Shown in pieces: positions 22,278-30,708 of a stretch of 64,000 nt of DNA; position 1 is the stretch's first letter, and the number at the start of each line of letters is the position of its first letter. This stretch comes from Synechococcus sp. NB0720_010. Lineage in GTDB: Bacteria; Cyanobacteriota; Cyanobacteriia; PCC-6307; Cyanobiaceae. The notes below the pieces were generated by a model. The model did not search any database and was not told the DNA's origin. It saw only the letters and a list, made by a program, of their open reading frames with translations. The DNA is taken from NCBI RefSeq assembly GCF_023078835.1, contig NZ_CP090898.1, forward strand, positions 2,048,045 through 2,112,044, in the 5' to 3' direction. The translations under genes and the position numbers were made by a program.

Positions 22278-23192
22278 TCAGCGGCGCGGGCTGACCACTT
22301 GATCAAAGCTGCTGGCGGTGATCAGTCCCGGTTGGCTGGCGGTGTCCACGGTGAAGGAGCGAGATTCCGCCTGGCTGGTGCCATCCGGATAGACGAAGGT
22401 CACGACCCCCTGCAGGGTGACCTTGCTGCCATCGCGGCTGACTTCCTGGAGGTTGTCGACGGCCACCCGTTGGAACTGGCTGAAGAAGGCGGGATCGAAC
22501 TGATCGGCGGCTTGGGGGCTGAAGAGTTGCTTGGCGGCAGCGGTGTTCCCTAGGGAGATGTCGTCGTACAGCTGGCGGACGGTCTCAATGGCCTGGTTCA
22601 ACTGCAGTTGGGCTGGATCCAACTTGGGTTCGCTGGTGGCCGGCTCCGGTTCGGTTTGGGTGGGTTTGGGCTCGCTCACCAGGGCCGGCGCTGGGGCCGT
22701 GGAGGGCGTCATGGAGCGGTTGAGCAGCACCAGCCAGGTGAGGGCACCAACAACGCCCACCACCAGCACGCCAGCGATGAAGCTCAGCACTGCGACGACA
22801 CCGCTGTTGGAGTGAACGGGGGTATCCACCCCGGCGGTGGGCTCGTCCTGGAGGTCGCTGGGGATGGCCTGGCCATCGGGGGCCAGGCCCAGCAGGCCCC
22901 GCAGGACGTCGGCCATCCGCAGGCACAGGGCCGGGGCGAAGAGAGCGTCGAGCTCCTGCTGCAGCCGCAGGTTGAGTTGGGTTTCGCTGGGTAGGGGCGG
23001 CCGCTCGGCCACGGCCTCCTGGAAGGCGGCGGTTTGCACCAGGTGCTTCAGGGCCGGCAGCAGCAGCAGTTCGTTGTCTCCGCAAAAATCGCTGAGCAGC
23101 GCCTGGTAGCGGCGCGCATCACTGCTGATCCCCCGCTCAAAGTCCGCCAGGATTTGGCGCCGCAGCTTCACGCCGAGCTGGTAGTCGTTCAT
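22278..23192 (-). CDS. Single-pass membrane protein with NTF2-like C-terminal region
   Basis: 304 residues from ATG 23192, which overlaps the PP2C stop (ATGA). Residues 1-110 are a helical cytoplasmic domain (RYQALLSDFCGDNELLLLP at 29-47). Residues 131-157 form one membrane helix, 160-195 a Pro/Thr/Glu-rich spacer, and 200-304 a probable NTF2-like domain (LNQAIETVRQLYDDISLGN, then strands). That layout resembles the extracytoplasmic sensor part of some bacterial kinases, but no kinase domain is fused here. Last gene of the kinase/phosphatase operon. No family name recognised. Confidence 0.72.
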   Translation of the reverse strand: MNDYQLGVKLRRQILADFERGISSDARRYQALLSDFCGDNELLLLPALKHLVQTAAFQEAVAERPPLPSETQLNLRLQQELDALFAPALCLRMADVLRGLLGLAPDGQAIPSDLQDEPTAGVDTPVHSNSGVVAVLSFIAGVLVVGVVGALTWLVLLNRSMTPSTAPAPALVSEPKPTQTEPEPATSEPKLDPAQLQLNQAIETVRQLYDDISLGNTAAAKQLFSPQAADQFDPAFFSQFQRVAVDNLQEVSRDGSKVTLQGVVTFVYPDGTSQAESRSFTVDTASQPGLITASSFDQVVSPRR

Positions 23193-24343
23193 GGTCGCGC
23201 CGGGGCGCGGGATGGCTCTTGAGTCTCGCTCGCCGCCTCCCATTGCGCCCGCAGGGCTTGCTCCAGGGCTGGGCAGATCTTCGGCTCCGCCTTGGCACCA
23301 GGCGCGTTGCTGGCAATCAGGGCGCCTAGGGGATCTCGCTCGGGGTGATCCAGCAGCGCCTGGGCTTGGGCGGGACTGCTCTTGAAGGCCAGGAATTGCT
23401 GGCGCCGTTGCTTGAGGCTGGCCTCAATCCGCTCGGGGTGCTGGCAGAGCTGTTGGATCTCGAGGGCCAGCGGATCAGGGGTCTTGGGCCACCACCAGAG
23501 GGCCCCCGCGATCAGGGCTGCGGCAGCGCCCAGGGCGGTGAGGACCCCCGCCTTCCCGCGCCGGGCTGGTTCGCTGCGCTGGGCGATGGCAACGGAGACA
23601 TCGTCACCGCTGCCTTGGGCCGTGATTTCCTCCAATCCCTGGACCAAGGCCTCCCCCTGGATCTCCAGCATCTGCTGGCAGAGCTGCAGGAAGTCCCCAT
23701 CTGTGGCGCAGGACTTGCGCACCCCATCGGTGCAGAGCACCAGGGCGGTTCTGGGGAGGGCGGACTGGAGTTGGACCCGCGTGGACCAGGCATCCAGGGC
23801 TTCGCTTTGGCAGAGGCTCAAGGTGGCCTCTCCTGTGGCGTTGCTCAGTTGCTCCTGGTTCACCAGACGGGCATCCCCATCGGCGTGGATCTCCACGAGG
23901 TCCCAATCGCCGATGCCGGTGCAGCCCCACCAGTCGGGGCTCAGCAGGACCAATCCCAGGGTGCAGCCGTAGAGCGCGCTGGAGAAGGCTTCGTCCGCTG
24001 AAGCGGCCTGGCTGCTCCAGTGCTCCTCGATCGCCCGGAGCCAGCGCTGCTGAATCGCGTTGGGCAGCTCCTGCGCGAGCAGCCGGCGCCAGCCGTCTTG
24101 ATCCTGAAGGGAGAGTGTCCTGGCCAGCGCCGCGACCGACTCCTCTGCCGCAGCGCAGGCCAGCTGGCTACCCACATCGCTGAGGCGATAGCGGCTGCCG
24201 CCATGGCCATCGGAGACCAGAAGCAGTTGCAGCTCAGGGCCGACTTGGCAGACCCGGGAGGCGTCTTGGCAGGGTTTGCCCTGCCGCCGGTGGGCGGCGC
24301 CGATCACGCTGCAATGGCGTGCGCCAGTCCAGGCGGGTCTCAC
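23189..24343 (-). CDS. PP2C-type Ser/Thr protein phosphatase, membrane-anchored
   Basis: About 384 residues. PP2C motifs: LVSDGHGGSRY near residue 45 (metal-binding Asp), GIGDWDLVEI, LVLCTDGVR and GSGDDVSVAI. A single membrane helix follows (AGVLTALGAAAALIAGAL, about 266-285), then a charged tail of about 95 residues. The phosphatase domain would be cytoplasmic. I place the start at GTG 24343, which overlaps the vWA stop as GTGA; the GTG one codon earlier (24346) is equally readable. It is the natural antagonist of the kinase encoded two genes upstream. Confidence 0.88.
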   Translation of the reverse strand: MRPAWTGARHCSVIGAAHRRQGKPCQDASRVCQVGPELQLLLVSDGHGGSRYRLSDVGSQLACAAAEESVAALARTLSLQDQDGWRRLLAQELPNAIQQRWLRAIEEHWSSQAASADEAFSSALYGCTLGLVLLSPDWWGCTGIGDWDLVEIHADGDARLVNQEQLSNATGEATLSLCQSEALDAWSTRVQLQSALPRTALVLCTDGVRKSCATDGDFLQLCQQMLEIQGEALVQGLEEITAQGSGDDVSVAIAQRSEPARRGKAGVLTALGAAAALIAGALWWWPKTPDPLALEIQQLCQHPERIEASLKQRRQQFLAFKSSPAQAQALLDHPERDPLGALIASNAPGAKAEPKICPALEQALRAQWEAASETQEPSRAPARP

Positions 24344-25071
24344 CACACCAGTGGACCGACGTCGTCGACGGGGTCCAGCAGGGTCGGCGGCAGATCCGGC
24401 AGGGGAATGTTGCCTGCATCCTGCGGCGTGTCATCCAACCGGCTGGCGGGCATGGAGGCCGCTCCGACCACGGCGGTGGAGGCCCATTGGATGTACTGCG
24501 CCAGGGTCGTGGCATTGCTGGCCTGCAGCGGTCGCCGCGGCGACTTGCCGCCACCGCTGGGCTCAGGACCAATGAACTGCTGCAGCACCTCGAGGTCGGC
24601 GTCATGGCCCATGGCAATCGCCAGGCGCACGGCCTTCTGGGCCCAAGGCTGACGCATCAGCTGGCTTAGCCCCGCATCGAAGTCGTCGGTGGGTTGGCCG
24701 TCGGAGATCAGCACCAAGACCGGGGGGAGAGCCCGCTCCTCCATCGGCGGGGACTGCAGCACGCCGGCCACCAGCTCCAGCGCTTCCCCCATGGCGGTGA
24801 TGCCACCGGCCTCAAGATCACGCCACTGCAGCTCCTGCACCGGTGTGGGCTCGGCCAGATGCCAGGCGGCGCCATCGGCAAAACGCACGGCCCGCACCAG
24901 CACCCGGGCTTCAGGGTTTTGCTCGGCAACCTCCGCCATGCCCGGCAGGGACTGCCGGATCGACTGATTCAGGGCTTGCATCTTGCCCTGGGCGGCCATG
25001 GAGCCGGAGCAATCGCAGAGGTAAATGAAGTGCAGTGGGCGGTTGCTGAGGCGAACGTTGGGGAAGGGCAT
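24340..25071 (-). CDS. TerY-like von Willebrand factor A domain protein
   Basis: 243 residues. A complete MIDAS motif is visible: CDCSGSM (D19-S21-S23 region), the threonine of GGITAMGEAL and the aspartate of LISDGQPTDD. The protein is almost all vWA domain, with a Pro-rich tail that ends in DDVGPLVW. TerY-like vWA proteins are known as partners of a kinase and a PP2C phosphatase in TerY-P systems. It starts 3 bases after the kinase stop and overlaps the phosphatase start. Confidence 0.88.
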   Translation of the reverse strand: MPFPNVRLSNRPLHFIYLCDCSGSMAAQGKMQALNQSIRQSLPGMAEVAEQNPEARVLVRAVRFADGAAWHLAEPTPVQELQWRDLEAGGITAMGEALELVAGVLQSPPMEERALPPVLVLISDGQPTDDFDAGLSQLMRQPWAQKAVRLAIAMGHDADLEVLQQFIGPEPSGGGKSPRRPLQASNATTLAQYIQWASTAVVGAASMPASRLDDTPQDAGNIPLPDLPPTLLDPVDDVGPLVW

Positions 25072-25074
25072 GGC

Positions 25075-26397
25075 TTATCTGCGGATCGGGGTGATCGGCC
25101 CGGCCTGGGTGCTGAGTTGCTGCAGGGCCGCGACATTACAGGTTTTGCCCGGCTCCACCTCCAGCAGCTGGCCGTTGCTCAACTGGCCTTGCCAGGCCGT
25201 TGCTCCGAGGTTCCTGAGACCGACAACGCTTGGGTCCGTGGGGTGGCCGACCAGCTGCGCCAGGGGCTGATCGAGCCGCTCGCTGTCGCGTCCATCGAAG
25301 TGATGGGGGTAGAGGTCATTGCCTGGGCAGGCGGCCACCTGTCCTCGGGGGAGCTGCAGTTGCAGGACTGCCGGGTTGGTGTGACCGCAGCTCCAGCAGG
25401 GTCCGCTGTGGAAGAGTTCTTCGCCGCAGTGCTGACAGAGGTGGCGTTGGTCCAGGCAGCGCGCGAGCACCTGCTTCCACTGCCCGGTCAGGGGGCGTAT
25501 GCCGGGTTGCCGAAGCCCCGCGCCAAAGCTCGTCTCAAACAGCTGCTGCAAGCTCCGCGGGTAGATCGGCCAGGTCAGCAAGGCCGCGGCGTGTTCCTCT
25601 GAATCAGGCCGGTTCGCGGGGTTCTCTGGATCAAAGATGAACAGGGCCTCCTCGCCGTAGAGCCGGCGCCGGGCCGGTTCATCGAGGCAGCGGATCGCCA
25701 GTTCCTGTCGCCCGCGGAAGGGGTCGTGGCGGGTGAGCAGCCGAAAGAGCAGCACGGCCAGGCTGAATTGATCCGTGCTGGCACTGGGTTTGGCTGCCCC
25801 CAGCAGCACCTCCGGGGCCATGAATCCTGGGGTGCCGAGCACGCTGCCGGCGCCCTGGCCGTCGATCGCGACGTTGTCGTTGTCGCAGATCAGGATCGCG
25901 CCATCGCCTGGCCTGAGGAAGAGGTTCCCCAGGGAGATGTCCTTGTAACAGAGCCCCTTGAGGTGGAGTTCGTGGAAGGCATCGGCCAGATGAAAGCAGG
26001 CCCGCAGGATGTTCTGCAGGCTGATCTCCATCCGCCCGCCGGCATGGAGATGGGCCCCCTGGAAACCACTGGGACGCAGGGGCATCAAGTAGCCAAAGCC
26101 TGGCTCTTGGCAGCGGATCAGGGGCCGACTCTCGGCGCTGGGCTCCAGCAGTGCCATGGGCCAGAGAAAGGCGCCGTTGGGAGCCCCCAGGCGAATGCTT
26201 TGCTGCAGGCGCTGCCGCAGTAGTGGGTCGCGGGCGATGCAACTGGGGAAGTACCACTTCAGGGCGAGCTCCTCCGCACCGCAGCGCACGGCGTAGACCT
26301 GCCCTTGGGTTCCGCCCCCCAGGAGGCGCGTGAGTTCAAGGGGTTGATCGAGGCCGTCGAACGGCAGGTGTGTCCCCAGCGGCAGCAGGCTGTTCAT
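25075..26397 (-). CDS. Divergent Ser/Thr protein kinase with C-terminal zinc ribbon
   Basis: 440 residues from ATG 26397, which overlaps the FHA gene stop (ATGA). Kinase motifs: glycine loop GGGTQGQV (27-34), K47 in LALKWY, catalytic loop CYKDISLGN (D153, N158) replacing HRDxxxxN, metal-binding DND (172-174) replacing DFG, and MAPE (193-196). Lys, catalytic Asp, Asn and the first metal Asp are all kept, so activity is plausible. A C4 zinc ribbon follows at C321, C324, C334 and C337. Soluble. Matches the kinase member of TerY-P triads in its neighbours and its zinc ribbon. Confidence 0.85.
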   Translation of the reverse strand: MNSLLPLGTHLPFDGLDQPLELTRLLGGGTQGQVYAVRCGAEELALKWYFPSCIARDPLLRQRLQQSIRLGAPNGAFLWPMALLEPSAESRPLIRCQEPGFGYLMPLRPSGFQGAHLHAGGRMEISLQNILRACFHLADAFHELHLKGLCYKDISLGNLFLRPGDGAILICDNDNVAIDGQGAGSVLGTPGFMAPEVLLGAAKPSASTDQFSLAVLLFRLLTRHDPFRGRQELAIRCLDEPARRRLYGEEALFIFDPENPANRPDSEEHAAALLTWPIYPRSLQQLFETSFGAGLRQPGIRPLTGQWKQVLARCLDQRHLCQHCGEELFHSGPCWSCGHTNPAVLQLQLPRGQVAACPGNDLYPHHFDGRDSERLDQPLAQLVGHPTDPSVVGLRNLGATAWQGQLSNGQLLEVEPGKTCNVAALQQLSTQAGPITPIRR

Positions 26398-27071
26398 CGG
26401 CCCTGGCTGGCGAGGGCCTTGCGGATGCCGTTGCGATGGGCCAGGGCCGTGCGGCGGTTGGCAAAGCCATGGCGTAGGGCACGGCCATCCCGTAGCACCA
26501 CCACCAGGCTGTGGTCCTTGCGGGAGCCCAGCACGATCCAGCCGCCCAGGGCGCCGATTTCTAGAGGCCAGAAGATCAGCGGGAAGGGCAGCAACAGCAG
26601 CCCCCCGAGGCAGAACAGCAACCACCAGCTGAAGACGTGGGGGTGGCGGGGCAGGCTCTGCACTCCCGCCGAGAGGATCTCGGCCAGCTCCACCGCTTCC
26701 CCATCCACATCGATTCGGCGGGGCGCGGCTGGTTTGGGCGCTGGCTTGGTCGCAGTGGTGGTGATCAGCTCAAACTGCAGCAGGGGGCCCTGGAGTCCCA
26801 GCCGGATCTCATCGCCGTCCTCGAGCTGGCGGCACTGTTGAATCCGTTGCCCTTCGAGGAAGGTGCCGTCGTTGCTCTGCCACTCGCAGATCAACCAGCC
26901 CTGGGTTTGCGAGAACCGGACGACGGCGTGGTGATCGGAAACCCCGGTTTGGCTGGCGAGGCAGAGCCGATTGCTCGGAGCCTTGCCGATCGTCAGGGGC
27001 TGTTTGGGATCGAGGGGCGCGGCTTTGCTGGGATCGCTGGCGAGCAGCAAGCGGGCTTTGGGGGCGCTCAT
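26394..27071 (-). CDS. FHA-domain membrane protein
   Basis: 225 residues from ATG 27071. The FHA domain (about 8-103) has the phosphothreonine-binding signature: LTIGK (28-30), SDHH (S45, H48) and SNDGTFLEG (N67, G69, T70). A Lys/Pro/Ala spacer leads to two hydrophobic helices (148-170 and 173-183) and a basic tail. The FHA domain would be cytoplasmic, and a likely reader of phosphothreonine made by the adjacent kinase. ATGA overlaps join it to both neighbours. Confidence 0.87.
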   Translation of the reverse strand: MSAPKARLLLASDPSKAAPLDPKQPLTIGKAPSNRLCLASQTGVSDHHAVVRFSQTQGWLICEWQSNDGTFLEGQRIQQCRQLEDGDEIRLGLQGPLLQFELITTTATKPAPKPAAPRRIDVDGEAVELAEILSAGVQSLPRHPHVFSWWLLFCLGGLLLLPFPLIFWPLEIGALGGWIVLGSRKDHSLVVVLRDGRALRHGFANRRTALAHRNGIRKALASQGR

Positions 27072-27394
27072 CGCTCTCCTCGCCGGCGCGCCCACCAGAG
27101 TCTCCAGTCATCGCGCAGGTCGTTCCAGAGGCCGCCATCCCCCTCGCGATAGGGCACGACACGACCGGGGAAGAGGACCGCTTTGCTGGCCAGCGCCAGC
27201 GCCACGAGCACCATCAACAGCAGGATCCAGCCCGGGATCGCACCCACCCAGGTGAAGGCAAAGAAGGCCCGCAGGGCATAGAGCCCGATCGTGATCGCCA
27301 ACCAGAGGCGGAAGGGCTCCCAGGGGTCCCGTTGACGCTGCACCGAAGGGGGGCGGAGGTGGGCTGGTCTTAGCCTATGGCTGGACTGCAACAC
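27068..27394 (-). CDS. Small membrane protein at the head of the FHA/kinase operon
   Basis: 108 residues if GTG 27394 is the start; other in-frame starts upstream would run into the divergent penicillin-binding protein gene. Two hydrophobic helices (about 31-47 and 50-70) are flanked by Arg-rich termini, and the C-terminus is Trp/Arg-rich (NDLRDDWRLWWARRRGER). Its stop overlaps the FHA gene start (ATGA), which supports it as a real gene. Function unknown. Confidence 0.65.
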   Translation of the reverse strand: MLQSSHRLRPAHLRPPSVQRQRDPWEPFRLWLAITIGLYALRAFFAFTWVGAIPGWILLLMVLVALALASKAVLFPGRVVPYREGDGGLWNDLRDDWRLWWARRRGER

Positions 27395-27416
27395 CCGCCT
27401 GAGCACTTCCTCTCGC

Positions 27417-29666
27417 TTGGATCGTCTTGCCTCACCGGCCGTTCGGGAGGCTTGGAAAGACTTTGCCCGTGCAGCCCTTCGCGGACCTTGGCGAGAGCGG
27501 CTCGAGGCGGTGCGGAGCACCCTGCCTGCATTGCTGGAACACCAGGCGCGCCTGGAGCTCTGGGGGAAGGACGGGAAGATCCAGGAGCTCAAGCTTGAGC
27601 CCAGGCGTTATCGCCTGGGCCGTGATCCGGCCTGCGAGCTGCCGTTGAGCGATCCGAGTCTCAGCCGGGTGCACGCGATCCTTGAGAAGGAGCGTCCCAG
27701 CGACCGGGACTTTGCATTGGAGGACTTTGGTTCCTCCAATGGCCTGTTCCATCGGGATCGTCGGATCCGCTGGATTCAGCTGCGGGATGGGGATGCGGTG
27801 CAGCTGGGCTCGCCCCTCAAGGGCCAGGCGCCTGAGCTGCGCTACGTCCACCCCCGCAGCCCCCTGGAGCAGGCGATTCGCCTGGTGGGCATCACGGCCT
27901 TGGCAGGCTCAGCCCTGTTGGTGAGTGGCATGCTGCTGGCCGCCAGCATTGGCGGCGGCTCCCGGATCCGCAGCATCGACGGTCCGGTCAAGATCTTTGC
28001 GGCCGATGGTCAGCAGGTGGATGCCAAGGAGGGGGCCTCCACGGCGCTGCCGTCCTTACGGTCCTATCCGCTGCATCTGCGCCAGGCCCTGCTGGCCTCC
28101 GAGGAGGCCCGCTTTGGTTGGAACAGCGGCATCGACCTGTTCGGCACCCTGCGCTCCGCTGTGTTGGGGAGCGGCGGCGGCAGCGGCCTCACCCAACAGG
28201 TGGCGCGCATGGTCTACCCGGAGGTGGGGCGCGACCTGAGCCTGACCCGCAAGCTGCGCGAGCTATGGGTGGCCCTACAGCTGGAGGTGGGCTTCAGCAA
28301 GAACCAGATCCTCAAGCTCTATCTCGATCGCGCCTACCTGGGCCTGGGGACCGAAGGCTTTGAGCAGGCGGCCCAGCTCTACTTCCGCAAGTCCGCCAGC
28401 GATCTGGACGTCGGCCAGTCGGCCTTTTTGGTGGGACTGCTCCCCAGCCCGAACGGCTACAGCCCCTGCAACCTCGAGGACCCAGGTGCGGGCCTGGAGC
28501 GCCGCAACCTGGTGCTGAAGTTGATGCACGAGCAGGGTTGGTTGAGCGATCAGGGCCTGATCGATGCCCAGCGGCGGCCCCTGAACATCGATCCCTCGGC
28601 CTGCCGGGAGTCGAGCTTCAGCAGTTACCCCTTCTTCAGCGACTACGTCATTGGTGAGCTCGAGGGCACCCGCTTTGGTTTGAACCTCAGGGGCGGTGAT
28701 GGGGCTGGCAATTACGCGGTGGAGAGCACGATCAACCCCAAGCTGCAGCAGTTGGCCCAGGAGCAGCTGAAGCGTTTTTTGGAGGGGCCCGCGGCCGCGG
28801 CGGGGCTGACCCAGGGGGCGCTGATCAGCCTGAATACCGAGACCGGCGACATCCTGGCCTACGTCGGCGGTGGCGATTACAGCCGCTCGAGTTTTGATCG
28901 GGTTCAGGCCCTGCGCCAGCCCGGCTCGACCTTCAAGTTGTTCCCCTTCCTGGCGGCCTTGGCCGCCGGCGTCTCACCGTCCGAGTCCATCTCCTGTGCC
29001 CCACTGGACTATGTGGGGGGCTGCCGTCAGTCCGCCGGAGCGATCAGCGTGGCCGCGGGTCTGGCGGGTTCGGAGAATGTCGTGGCCCTGCGGCTGGCGG
29101 AGCGGGCGGGGTTCTCCCAGGTGCTCAAGCTGGCGCGACGGCTGGGCATTTCGACGCCGCTGGACGCGGACTACAACACCATGCTGGGCGGCCGGGAGAC
29201 CTATCTCTACGAGATGGCCCGGGCCTATGCCGTGGTCGCGAACGGGGGGAGATCGGTGCCCGTGCACGGGGTCAGCCGCATCTATGACCTGGGCATCTGC
29301 CGATCGCTGAAAAGCCTGGACCGCTGTCCGGCCAGGGGTGTGACGACCCCGATTGGAGAGCGATCTCGCCAGTTGATCCGGCCGGAGGTGGCTGCGGCGA
29401 TGGATCAGATGTTGGCTGGGGTGGTCCAGGGCGGAACGGGCAGAGCGGCGGCGGTGGTCCCGGATGCCCGCGGCAAGACCGGCACCACCAACAACGGCGT
29501 GGATGCCCTGTTCATCGGCTACTCCCCCTCGCTGAAGGTTCTGACGGCGATTTGGATGGGGAACGACGACAACCGTCCCGCCTCCGGAGCGAGCGGTGGC
29601 TTGGTGGCGCAGCTTTGGGGGCGCTACATGCAGCAGGCCGCTAGAGCCCTGCCTGCAGCCGGCTGA
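27417..29666 (+). CDS. Class A penicillin-binding protein with N-terminal FHA domain
   Basis: 749 residues from a TTG at 27417 (no better start in frame). The FHA domain is at about 45-145: GRD (68-70), SRVH (83-86), SSNG (106-109). One membrane helix is at about 153-176. The GT51 glycosyltransferase has SEEARF (E229) and GSGLTQQ. The transpeptidase has STFK (S504, K507), SEN (552-554) and KTG (687-689). The enzyme polymerises and crosslinks peptidoglycan outside the membrane with the FHA inside. Divergent from the kinase operon by 22 bases; its 3' end overlaps the convergent rhomboid-like gene by 26 bases. Confidence 0.92.
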   Translation: MDRLASPAVREAWKDFARAALRGPWRERLEAVRSTLPALLEHQARLELWGKDGKIQELKLEPRRYRLGRDPACELPLSDPSLSRVHAILEKERPSDRDFALEDFGSSNGLFHRDRRIRWIQLRDGDAVQLGSPLKGQAPELRYVHPRSPLEQAIRLVGITALAGSALLVSGMLLAASIGGGSRIRSIDGPVKIFAADGQQVDAKEGASTALPSLRSYPLHLRQALLASEEARFGWNSGIDLFGTLRSAVLGSGGGSGLTQQVARMVYPEVGRDLSLTRKLRELWVALQLEVGFSKNQILKLYLDRAYLGLGTEGFEQAAQLYFRKSASDLDVGQSAFLVGLLPSPNGYSPCNLEDPGAGLERRNLVLKLMHEQGWLSDQGLIDAQRRPLNIDPSACRESSFSSYPFFSDYVIGELEGTRFGLNLRGGDGAGNYAVESTINPKLQQLAQEQLKRFLEGPAAAAGLTQGALISLNTETGDILAYVGGGDYSRSSFDRVQALRQPGSTFKLFPFLAALAAGVSPSESISCAPLDYVGGCRQSAGAISVAAGLAGSENVVALRLAERAGFSQVLKLARRLGISTPLDADYNTMLGGRETYLYEMARAYAVVANGGRSVPVHGVSRIYDLGICRSLKSLDRCPARGVTTPIGERSRQLIRPEVAAAMDQMLAGVVQGGTGRAAAVVPDARGKTGTTNNGVDALFIGYSPSLKVLTAIWMGNDDNRPASGASGGLVAQLWGRYMQQAARALPAAG

Positions 29667-30708
29667 TCAGGGCCCAGACCAGACCCAGGATCAGTCCCCA
29701 ACTGCAGCTGGAGGCCAGCAGGCGTTGCAGGGCCGTGCTGCGTTCCTCGGGTTGCTGGCGGGGGAGCTGCCAGCCCAGTTGCAGGGCCCCCACCAACAGC
29801 AGCAGTACCCAAGCCGGGATGCTCAGCCCCAGGGGGCGAAAGACCAAGAGCTTCCACTGCAGCAGGCTGGAGCCGGCCGCTAGGCCGATCAAGGCACAGA
29901 CCGGCCCGGCCGATCCGCTCCAGGTTCGTTGGACGCTCCAGCGTTTGGCGCAGAGTGCGGCCAGGCCCAGGCAGGCCAGGGCCGTCAGGCTGTAGCGCAG
30001 GATCACCTGGCCGAGGGGCAGGGGCGAGTTCCCCAGGATGATCAGCAGCACGGCCACGTTCACCGCGGCTTCGAGACCGCTGCCATGGACCCAGGGGGAA
30101 CTGATCCAGCGCCAGACCTGCCGCGGTTGTGAGGCCTGCTCGCTGCTCAGACTCCAGCGTCGCCTCAGGCTGCTGCGCCACGGTCCGACGGCCAGGCCGG
30201 CCAGGCTTATCACCAGCACCAGACCCCCGCTCCAGCCCCAGCCATCAAAGATCAGCCGGTCCAGTTCCTGGCCGAACCAGCTCAGCACCAAGGCGCCGCA
30301 GGCTGAGAGGGCCAGCCCTGGGGCGAGTGGTTCCAAACCCTTGAGGGCCGTTGCGGCAGGAGCGGCCGCAACGCTCTGGCGCGGTGGGACGGCCGCAGGC
30401 TCGGGCTTGCTTGTCCCGCAGGCGGCGTCGAGCAGATCCTGAAGCTCGCTTTGGACCTCGGCGGAGTAGGTCTGTCGAATGTGTGCCCCCAGGCTGGCGC
30501 GGGCACTGGTTTGGCTGGCGCCGCTGCCATGGAGCAGCTGCAGCAGCAGGGGTTGGTTGGCAAGGTCGCGAATGGGACCCCTCAGCGCGTCCTCCGCGCC
30601 GAGGGCATCGACGAGGCGATTGGCGATCGCCCGTCCGCTTTGCAGCGCCTCAGGGTTCTGGATCTGCCATTGGCGCAGCTGCCTGCCGAGAGTCGTGCCG
30701 AGGCCCAT
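29641..30708 (-). CDS. Rhomboid-like membrane protein lacking the catalytic serine
   Basis: 355 residues. An N-terminal helical domain (1-98) precedes a Pro/Ala linker and about six or seven hydrophobic helices (from about 128). The rhomboid landmarks are recognisable: SPWVHGSGLEAAVN (H208 and N217 kept, the second His replaced by E213) and SGSAGPVCALIG, where A267 stands at the catalytic serine position. The last-helix histidine is also missing. It is therefore probably a pseudoprotease. Convergent with the FHA-penicillin-binding protein gene. Confidence 0.68.
   Translation of the reverse strand: MGLGTTLGRQLRQWQIQNPEALQSGRAIANRLVDALGAEDALRGPIRDLANQPLLLQLLHGSGASQTSARASLGAHIRQTYSAEVQSELQDLLDAACGTSKPEPAAVPPRQSVAAAPAATALKGLEPLAPGLALSACGALVLSWFGQELDRLIFDGWGWSGGLVLVISLAGLAVGPWRSSLRRRWSLSSEQASQPRQVWRWISSPWVHGSGLEAAVNVAVLLIILGNSPLPLGQVILRYSLTALACLGLAALCAKRWSVQRTWSGSAGPVCALIGLAAGSSLLQWKLLVFRPLGLSIPAWVLLLLVGALQLGWQLPRQQPEERSTALQRLLASSCSWGLILGLVWALISRLQAGL

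Follow-up and report, generated by a model that had tools for sequence, protein, structure and literature searches.

We have analyzed a stretch of 64,000 nucleotides from Synechococcus sp. NB0720_010 (GCF_023078835.1, contig NZ_CP090898.1, positions 2,048,045-2,112,044 of the forward strand). This whole stretch is called here the window, and all coordinates refer to it. It contains a compact cluster in which a Ser/Thr kinase, a PP2C phosphatase and a vWA protein lie next to a class A penicillin-binding protein (PBP) that carries its own FHA domain. Six of the genes form a row on the minus strand and code, in order of reading, for a small membrane protein with two predicted transmembrane (TM) segments (27068-27394), an FHA-domain membrane protein (FHA-TM, 26394-27071; PF00498, 4.5e-14), a soluble Ser/Thr kinase with a C-terminal C4 zinc ribbon and an unannotated beta domain (25075-26397; PF00069, 2e-14), a soluble vWA protein with a complete metal-ion-dependent adhesion site (MIDAS) (24340-25071; PF00092, 1.7e-5), a PP2C phosphatase with one predicted TM segment (23189-24346; PF13672, 9e-32) and a single-pass NTF2-like protein, recognized by an AlphaFold2 model and Foldseek (22278-23192). 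The PBP gene (27417-29666) lies on the plus strand and codes for an N-terminal cytoplasmic FHA domain, one TM segment, a glycosyltransferase and a transpeptidase (PF00498, 2e-14; PF00912, 4.6e-41; PF00905, 1.1e-23). Family searches and gene calls confirmed all seven genes as they had been named in the original prediction, a note made from the sequence alone. The junctions of the minus-strand row are overlaps of 4, 7, 4 and 4 bases plus one gap of 3 bases, and such couplings dominate in the relatives too; as they recur in most of them, they are not due to chance. The distance of 22 bases given before for the divergent PBP gene is correct with two non-ATG starts (GTG at 27394 and TTG at 27417), but it cannot be taken as a fixed value since other starts are possible, GTG 27406 being an alternative start of the small membrane protein. 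A sigma-70 consensus promoter was not found, a result of little weight for a cyanobacterium.

The PBP (749 residues) joins FHA, transglycosylase and transpeptidase in one protein. Its catalytic residues, E229 of the glycosyltransferase and S504xxK507, S552xN554 and K687TG of the transpeptidase, were invariant in 27 sequences, and by its GT51 catalytic Glu and its SxxK, SxN and KTG motifs the protein qualifies as a class A PBP. In its FHA domain (27609-27809), G68, R69, S83, H86, N108 and G109, invariant as well (27 sequences), cover the conserved GR, SxxH and NG positions, as in a predicted phosphopeptide-binding FHA.

In the kinase, the glycine loop, K47, D153, N158 and D172, together with the four cysteines of the zinc ribbon (C321, C324, C334 and C337; 25387-25437, minus strand), were invariant over 31 kinase sequences; the motifs are variant, with YKD at the HRD position and DND at the DFG position. 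Neither a TM segment (hydropathy) nor a PASTA match (Pfam) was found. The structure model, with a predicted local distance difference test (pLDDT) of 83, has a kinase fold, the zinc ribbon and a C-terminal beta domain, and PknB was among its best fold matches, although the Foldseek search with the whole kinase was dominated by kinase cores and is uninformative on the beta domain. This last domain (residues ~340-440, 25078-25380) had been overlooked before, when the protein was described, correctly as far as it went, as a Ser/Thr kinase with a C4 zinc ribbon. It shows a conserved pattern, GLxNLSxxxW, common also to triad kinases of other phyla, and had no match in Pfam or PDB sequence searches. 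By eye and by strand count it looks like a third FHA domain, but the profile comparison with two sets of FHA domains gave nothing either, and for this reason we have rejected that assignment and left the domain unnamed.

The metal-site residues of the PP2C (D46-G47, D207-G208 and D248-D249) are invariant among relatives, and its TM segment is predicted from hydropathy at residues ~266-284. The MIDAS of the vWA protein (D20-x-S22-x-S24, T92 and D124) is likewise invariant. To this the present analysis adds a conserved motif, PLPDLPPT(xxD), in the C-terminal tail of the vWA protein (PLPDLPPTLLDPVDDVGPLVW, 24343-24405, minus strand). In the alignment of 58 loci, a variable linker of 18-35 residues is followed by PLPDLPPT and then usually by xxDP.DDVGPLVW. 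The mean pairwise identity is 99.6% over the PLPDLPPT core versus 31% in the 12 residues directly upstream. The Thr of PPT was kept in 58 of the 58 loci and the Asp at +3 (TxxD) in 55, the pair being T230 (codon 24382-24384) and D233 in the window. T230 is the only conserved Thr of the module that sits in such a linker and is followed by Asp at +3. A second conserved TxxD, at kinase T222, is within the kinase domain. Recognition by FHA domains is specific to phosphothreonine, and in the case of Rad53 FHA1 the sequence bound is pTxxD (PMC3146460, with a reference cited there). We regard the vWA tail as a candidate FHA ligand.

The FHA-TM protein appears less canonical than the FHA domain of the PBP at the phosphate-contact positions. 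Here it reads GK and DG at the GR and NG positions, while the His of SxxH is kept in all 28 ungapped sequences; among relatives the phosphate-contact position is R in 23 of 30 sequences and the N of NG is present in 14 of 30. The small membrane protein, whose TM segments are predicted from hydropathy, gave no match in family searches and keeps its place in 57 of 58 loci. The model of the NTF2-like protein (AlphaFold2, pLDDT 82) comprises helices at residues 3-100, a TM helix at 131-159 and an extracytoplasmic NTF2-like C-terminus, and Foldseek returned NTF2-fold proteins, with enterococcal PBP5 among the weak matches. The NTF2-like outer domain and the membrane span had been noticed before; the helical cytoplasmic domain had not. 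This helical domain has relatives at other triad loci of cyanobacteria (hhalign E 6e-5, against 0.1-0.9 for 20 column-shuffled controls), where related helical N-terminal domains adjoin the kinase or the vWA protein in several cases, joined to RDD, MORN or substrate-binding parts. Two further proteins with a similar-looking helical N-terminal domain adjoin displaced copies of the cluster (L024, 13128-14303, which sits by trypsin-like protease genes, and L065, 13033-14280). Of the 58 loci, only 28 gave a BLAST match to the NTF2-like gene itself, and the transferred copy described below does not include it, so it was rejected as a core member.

The order and orientation of the block (PP2C, vWA, kinase, FHA-TM and small protein, with the PBP divergent) were kept in 56 of 58 loci of the cyanobacterial order to which the strain belongs, the point that the original prediction had proposed to check. 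Many Cyanobium are among the named carriers, as are Synechococcus sp. WH 5701 and Vulcanococcus limneticus. One of the two exceptions (L068) is a block cut by a contig end; the other, Prochlorococcus sp. MIT 0701 (L056, the same locus as L137), is a true exception and has the triad only. Six copies (L024, L055, L057, L058, L059 and L065) lie away from both usual flanks, at sites that lack the atp/rhomboid flank, which shows that the linkage is no by-product of a conserved chromosome region. The distances of the kinase and those of the PBP also correlate after controlling for atpC, with a partial rho of 0.56 versus 0.02 for the kinase and a flanking gene. Besides, one genome of genus g5 (G017) nests inside the g1 clade in the concatenated tree. 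Its block has a GC content of 57% against 44.5% in the surroundings, and among the genomes listed no other of g5 has the triad kinase. The block has evidently moved en bloc into another genus, and the transferred piece goes from the PP2C through the PBP, without the NTF2-like gene. This transfer, PBP included, is the best single argument for the PBP belonging to the unit. A contig labelled as a Bifidobacterium breve metagenome-assembled genome (MAG) also carries the cyanobacterial block (L133), almost certainly a mislabelled or contaminated bin.

We have found the triad kinase in 62 of the 399 genomes of the order and an orthologue of the FHA-PBP in 61, all of them within those 62; the orthologue cut was set at E below 1e-38, the next best match being 5e-20. 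The only triad genome without it is Prochlorococcus MIT 0701. The independent segregation of triad and PBP that could have spoken against the original prediction is hence not seen, the orthologue being adjacent to the triad in the 61 genomes. Within the complete genome of Synechococcus sp. NB0720_010 (2.4 Mb), PF00069 had one match over the cut-off, the block kinase, the only other weak Pkinase match being an ABC1-type protein. PF13672 had one match, the block PP2C (the phosphatase families PF00481 and PF07228 were not searched), and PF00498 had two, the FHA-TM and the PBP. There are two class A PBPs, one of them without FHA. By these counts, the block appears to hold nearly the whole Hanks kinase, PP2C and FHA complement of the genome. 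Over the order, FHA and Pkinase domains (E below 1e-10) occur together in 141 genomes; 5 have FHA only and 4 kinase only, and the 146 genomes with any FHA domain are the same ones matched by the PBP FHA probe.

Weak matches of this probe were rejected as orthologues; the 16 cases retrieved belong to a second, paralogous FHA-PBP family (family B; L166-L181, for example L169 and L181). It is unlinked, occurs in genomes without the triad and is absent from Synechococcus sp. NB0720_010. Four genomes with family B were examined and each has another kinase of ~700 residues, one of which (G044) is a cyclase-kinase fusion; the two of these kinases whose sequences were read completely show HGD and DFG motifs and Arg replacing the beta-3 lysine. 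FHA domains on class A PBPs are thus a general picocyanobacterial theme, of which Synechococcus sp. NB0720_010 keeps only the operon-linked version. Searches of open-licence papers gave nothing specific on an FHA-PBP or on this cluster in cyanobacteria. Related kinases (E below 1e-112) were also seen outside the order, in two cyanobacterial families, where they adjoin vWA, PP2C and FHA proteins, with no PBP within the stretches read; one of these FHA proteins has its FHA domain joined to an intramembrane protease of the PrsW family (L085, 6691-8196). More distant, compact triads without FHA were found in MAGs labelled Verrucomicrobia, Acidobacteria and Bacteroidetes. Within the order, an ABC transporter with two FHA domains lies about 5 kb from the triad of Prochlorococcus sp. 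MIT 0701 (L056, 348-2705), a layout like that of the mycobacterial Rv1747.

Convergent with the PBP gene, and overlapping its 3' end by 26 bases, there is a rhomboid-like gene (29641-30708). The interval first proposed ran to 30708, but this final 1.1 kb is outside the unit. The gene keeps company with atpC and atpD and is missing from the six relocated copies, and we have rejected it as a block member on these grounds. The window copy carries GSAG at a site that is G[AS]SG in many relatives, and the protease may hence be inactive here.

Together the seven genes probably make up a phospho-switch dedicated to one class A PBP, and putative control of peptidoglycan synthesis by phosphorylation is in our judgement the likeliest reading. 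In such a switch, an envelope signal, perhaps through the NTF2-like protein or through zinc on the kinase ribbon, would set the relative activities of the kinase, which is soluble, and the PP2C, which is anchored in the membrane. The kinase would phosphorylate Thr230 in the flexible vWA tail, and the resulting pT-x-x-D could be read by the FHA domains of the PBP and of FHA-TM. This would tether the vWA-kinase complex to the synthase and either activate or restrain glycan polymerisation and cross-linking, until the PP2C resets the switch. A wider proposal, which we advance only tentatively, is that PLPDLPPTxxDP is a tag written by the kinase, erased by the phosphatase and read by FHA domains on exchangeable membrane outputs. 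These would be a class A PBP in most picocyanobacteria, the two-FHA ABC transporter in Prochlorococcus MIT 0701 and a PrsW-like protease in another family, and the whole Hanks-kinase and FHA complement of the present genome would form one circuit for one cell-wall synthase.

Several observations weigh against the switch. The triad of Prochlorococcus MIT 0701 persists without FHA-TM, small protein and PBP, with the tail motif retained, and the unlinked FHA-PBP paralogue occurs in genomes without a triad, so that finding an FHA domain on a PBP is not a sufficient sign of this circuit. The +3 Asp is missing in three loci that retain PPT, and FHA-TM has K or C in place of R in 5 of 30 sequences, K in our strain. 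The genome-wide counts rest on Pfam family searches, and other kinase-like folds exist, such as the ABC1 protein. The Fisher and rank statistics over the 399 genomes ignore phylogenetic relatedness. Some of these points lead to other explanations. The three loci with PPT and no Asp, and the presence of the C-terminal VW also in the FHA-less triads L158 and L159, would suit a tail that is a docking peptide for the kinase and no phospho-ligand, the FHA domains reading the autophosphorylated kinase or another protein. We hold this to be unlikely, as the PLPDLPPT core is not in L158 and L159 and was found near FHA-bearing partners in the loci checked, including MIT 0701 by its two-FHA ABC transporter. 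That the triad runs in relatives with other FHA proteins or with none indicates that its main function may not depend on the PBP, whose FHA could then be an anchor and not a control input, placing the kinase complex at sites of wall growth while its true targets are elsewhere. Against this, which we consider quite unlikely, Pfam searches place the kinase, the phosphatase and both FHA domains nowhere in the genome but in the block, leaving no other FHA readers.

It would also be conceivable that the cluster is a generic stress or anti-phage module of the TerY-P type with the PBP as a bystander. The architecture is that described for TerY-P in PMC11090510, and the kinase domain has matches among the defence kinase models of PADLOC, but these matches span only the generic kinase core and the remaining members had no PADLOC match save a weak one to TerY, for which reason the anti-phage interpretation was rejected. 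As the PBP linkage survives relocation and transfer and no TerD match was found in the genome, we find a bystander PBP very improbable. Bacterial kinases usually have many suspected targets, and thus cause and effect are hard to separate. This genome has one detectable Hanks kinase, one PP2C_2 and two FHA domains, all beside one peptidoglycan synthase, and only one candidate phosphosite, in the tail of an adaptor. If the phospho-switch is true, the block would offer a natural system of minimal size in which to see how a class A PBP is steered by phosphorylation, and TerY-P-like triads could be reusable phospho-writers whose output is set by which membrane protein bears the FHA.

In the TerY-P triad, a TerY-like vWA and a PP2C accompany a Ser/Thr kinase that carries a fused zinc ribbon at its C-terminus (Anantharaman et al., 2012, cited after PMC11090510). 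The block has the same three proteins, with the PP2C gene adjacent, the same kinase-zinc ribbon fusion and a complete vWA MIDAS, and in its architecture the TerY-P likeness proposed in the original prediction stands. Its vWA protein, however, matches the PADLOC TerY model only weakly (18 bits, partial, residues 47-141), its kinase has the extra beta domain, its vWA has the PLPDLPPT tail, and it is partnered with FHA proteins and a PBP, not with ter genes or restriction systems. That latter association is a trait of the described TerY-P examples and not part of the triad itself; here the neighbours are the PBP and the atp operon, with one borderline TerB far off in the genome, and the proposed link to tellurite or stress finds no support. 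The kinase, PP2C and TerY-type vWA of Escherichia coli, YegI-YegK(PphC)-YegL, are gene neighbours as well, and we know of no FHA or PBP partner for them. The family B FHA-PBPs have the same FHA-TM-glycosyltransferase-transpeptidase layout as the block PBP but differ in their lack of linkage to a triad. The mycobacterial system includes the phosphatase PstP and shows clustering of its genes. There, PknA, PknB and FHA proteins regulate wall synthesis (PMC6213207, PMC2877116). The block differs from it in that its kinase is soluble, without the PASTA repeats or TM segment of PknB/StkP-type wall kinases, in that the FHA is fused directly to a class A PBP, and in that a vWA protein and a zinc ribbon belong to the cyanobacterial unit. 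Both share a Ser/Thr kinase, a PP2C and FHA readers that act, in our case putatively, on peptidoglycan enzymes. By this analogy, the block would resemble kinase-phosphatase-FHA wall regulators such as Pkn/PstP without being one of them.

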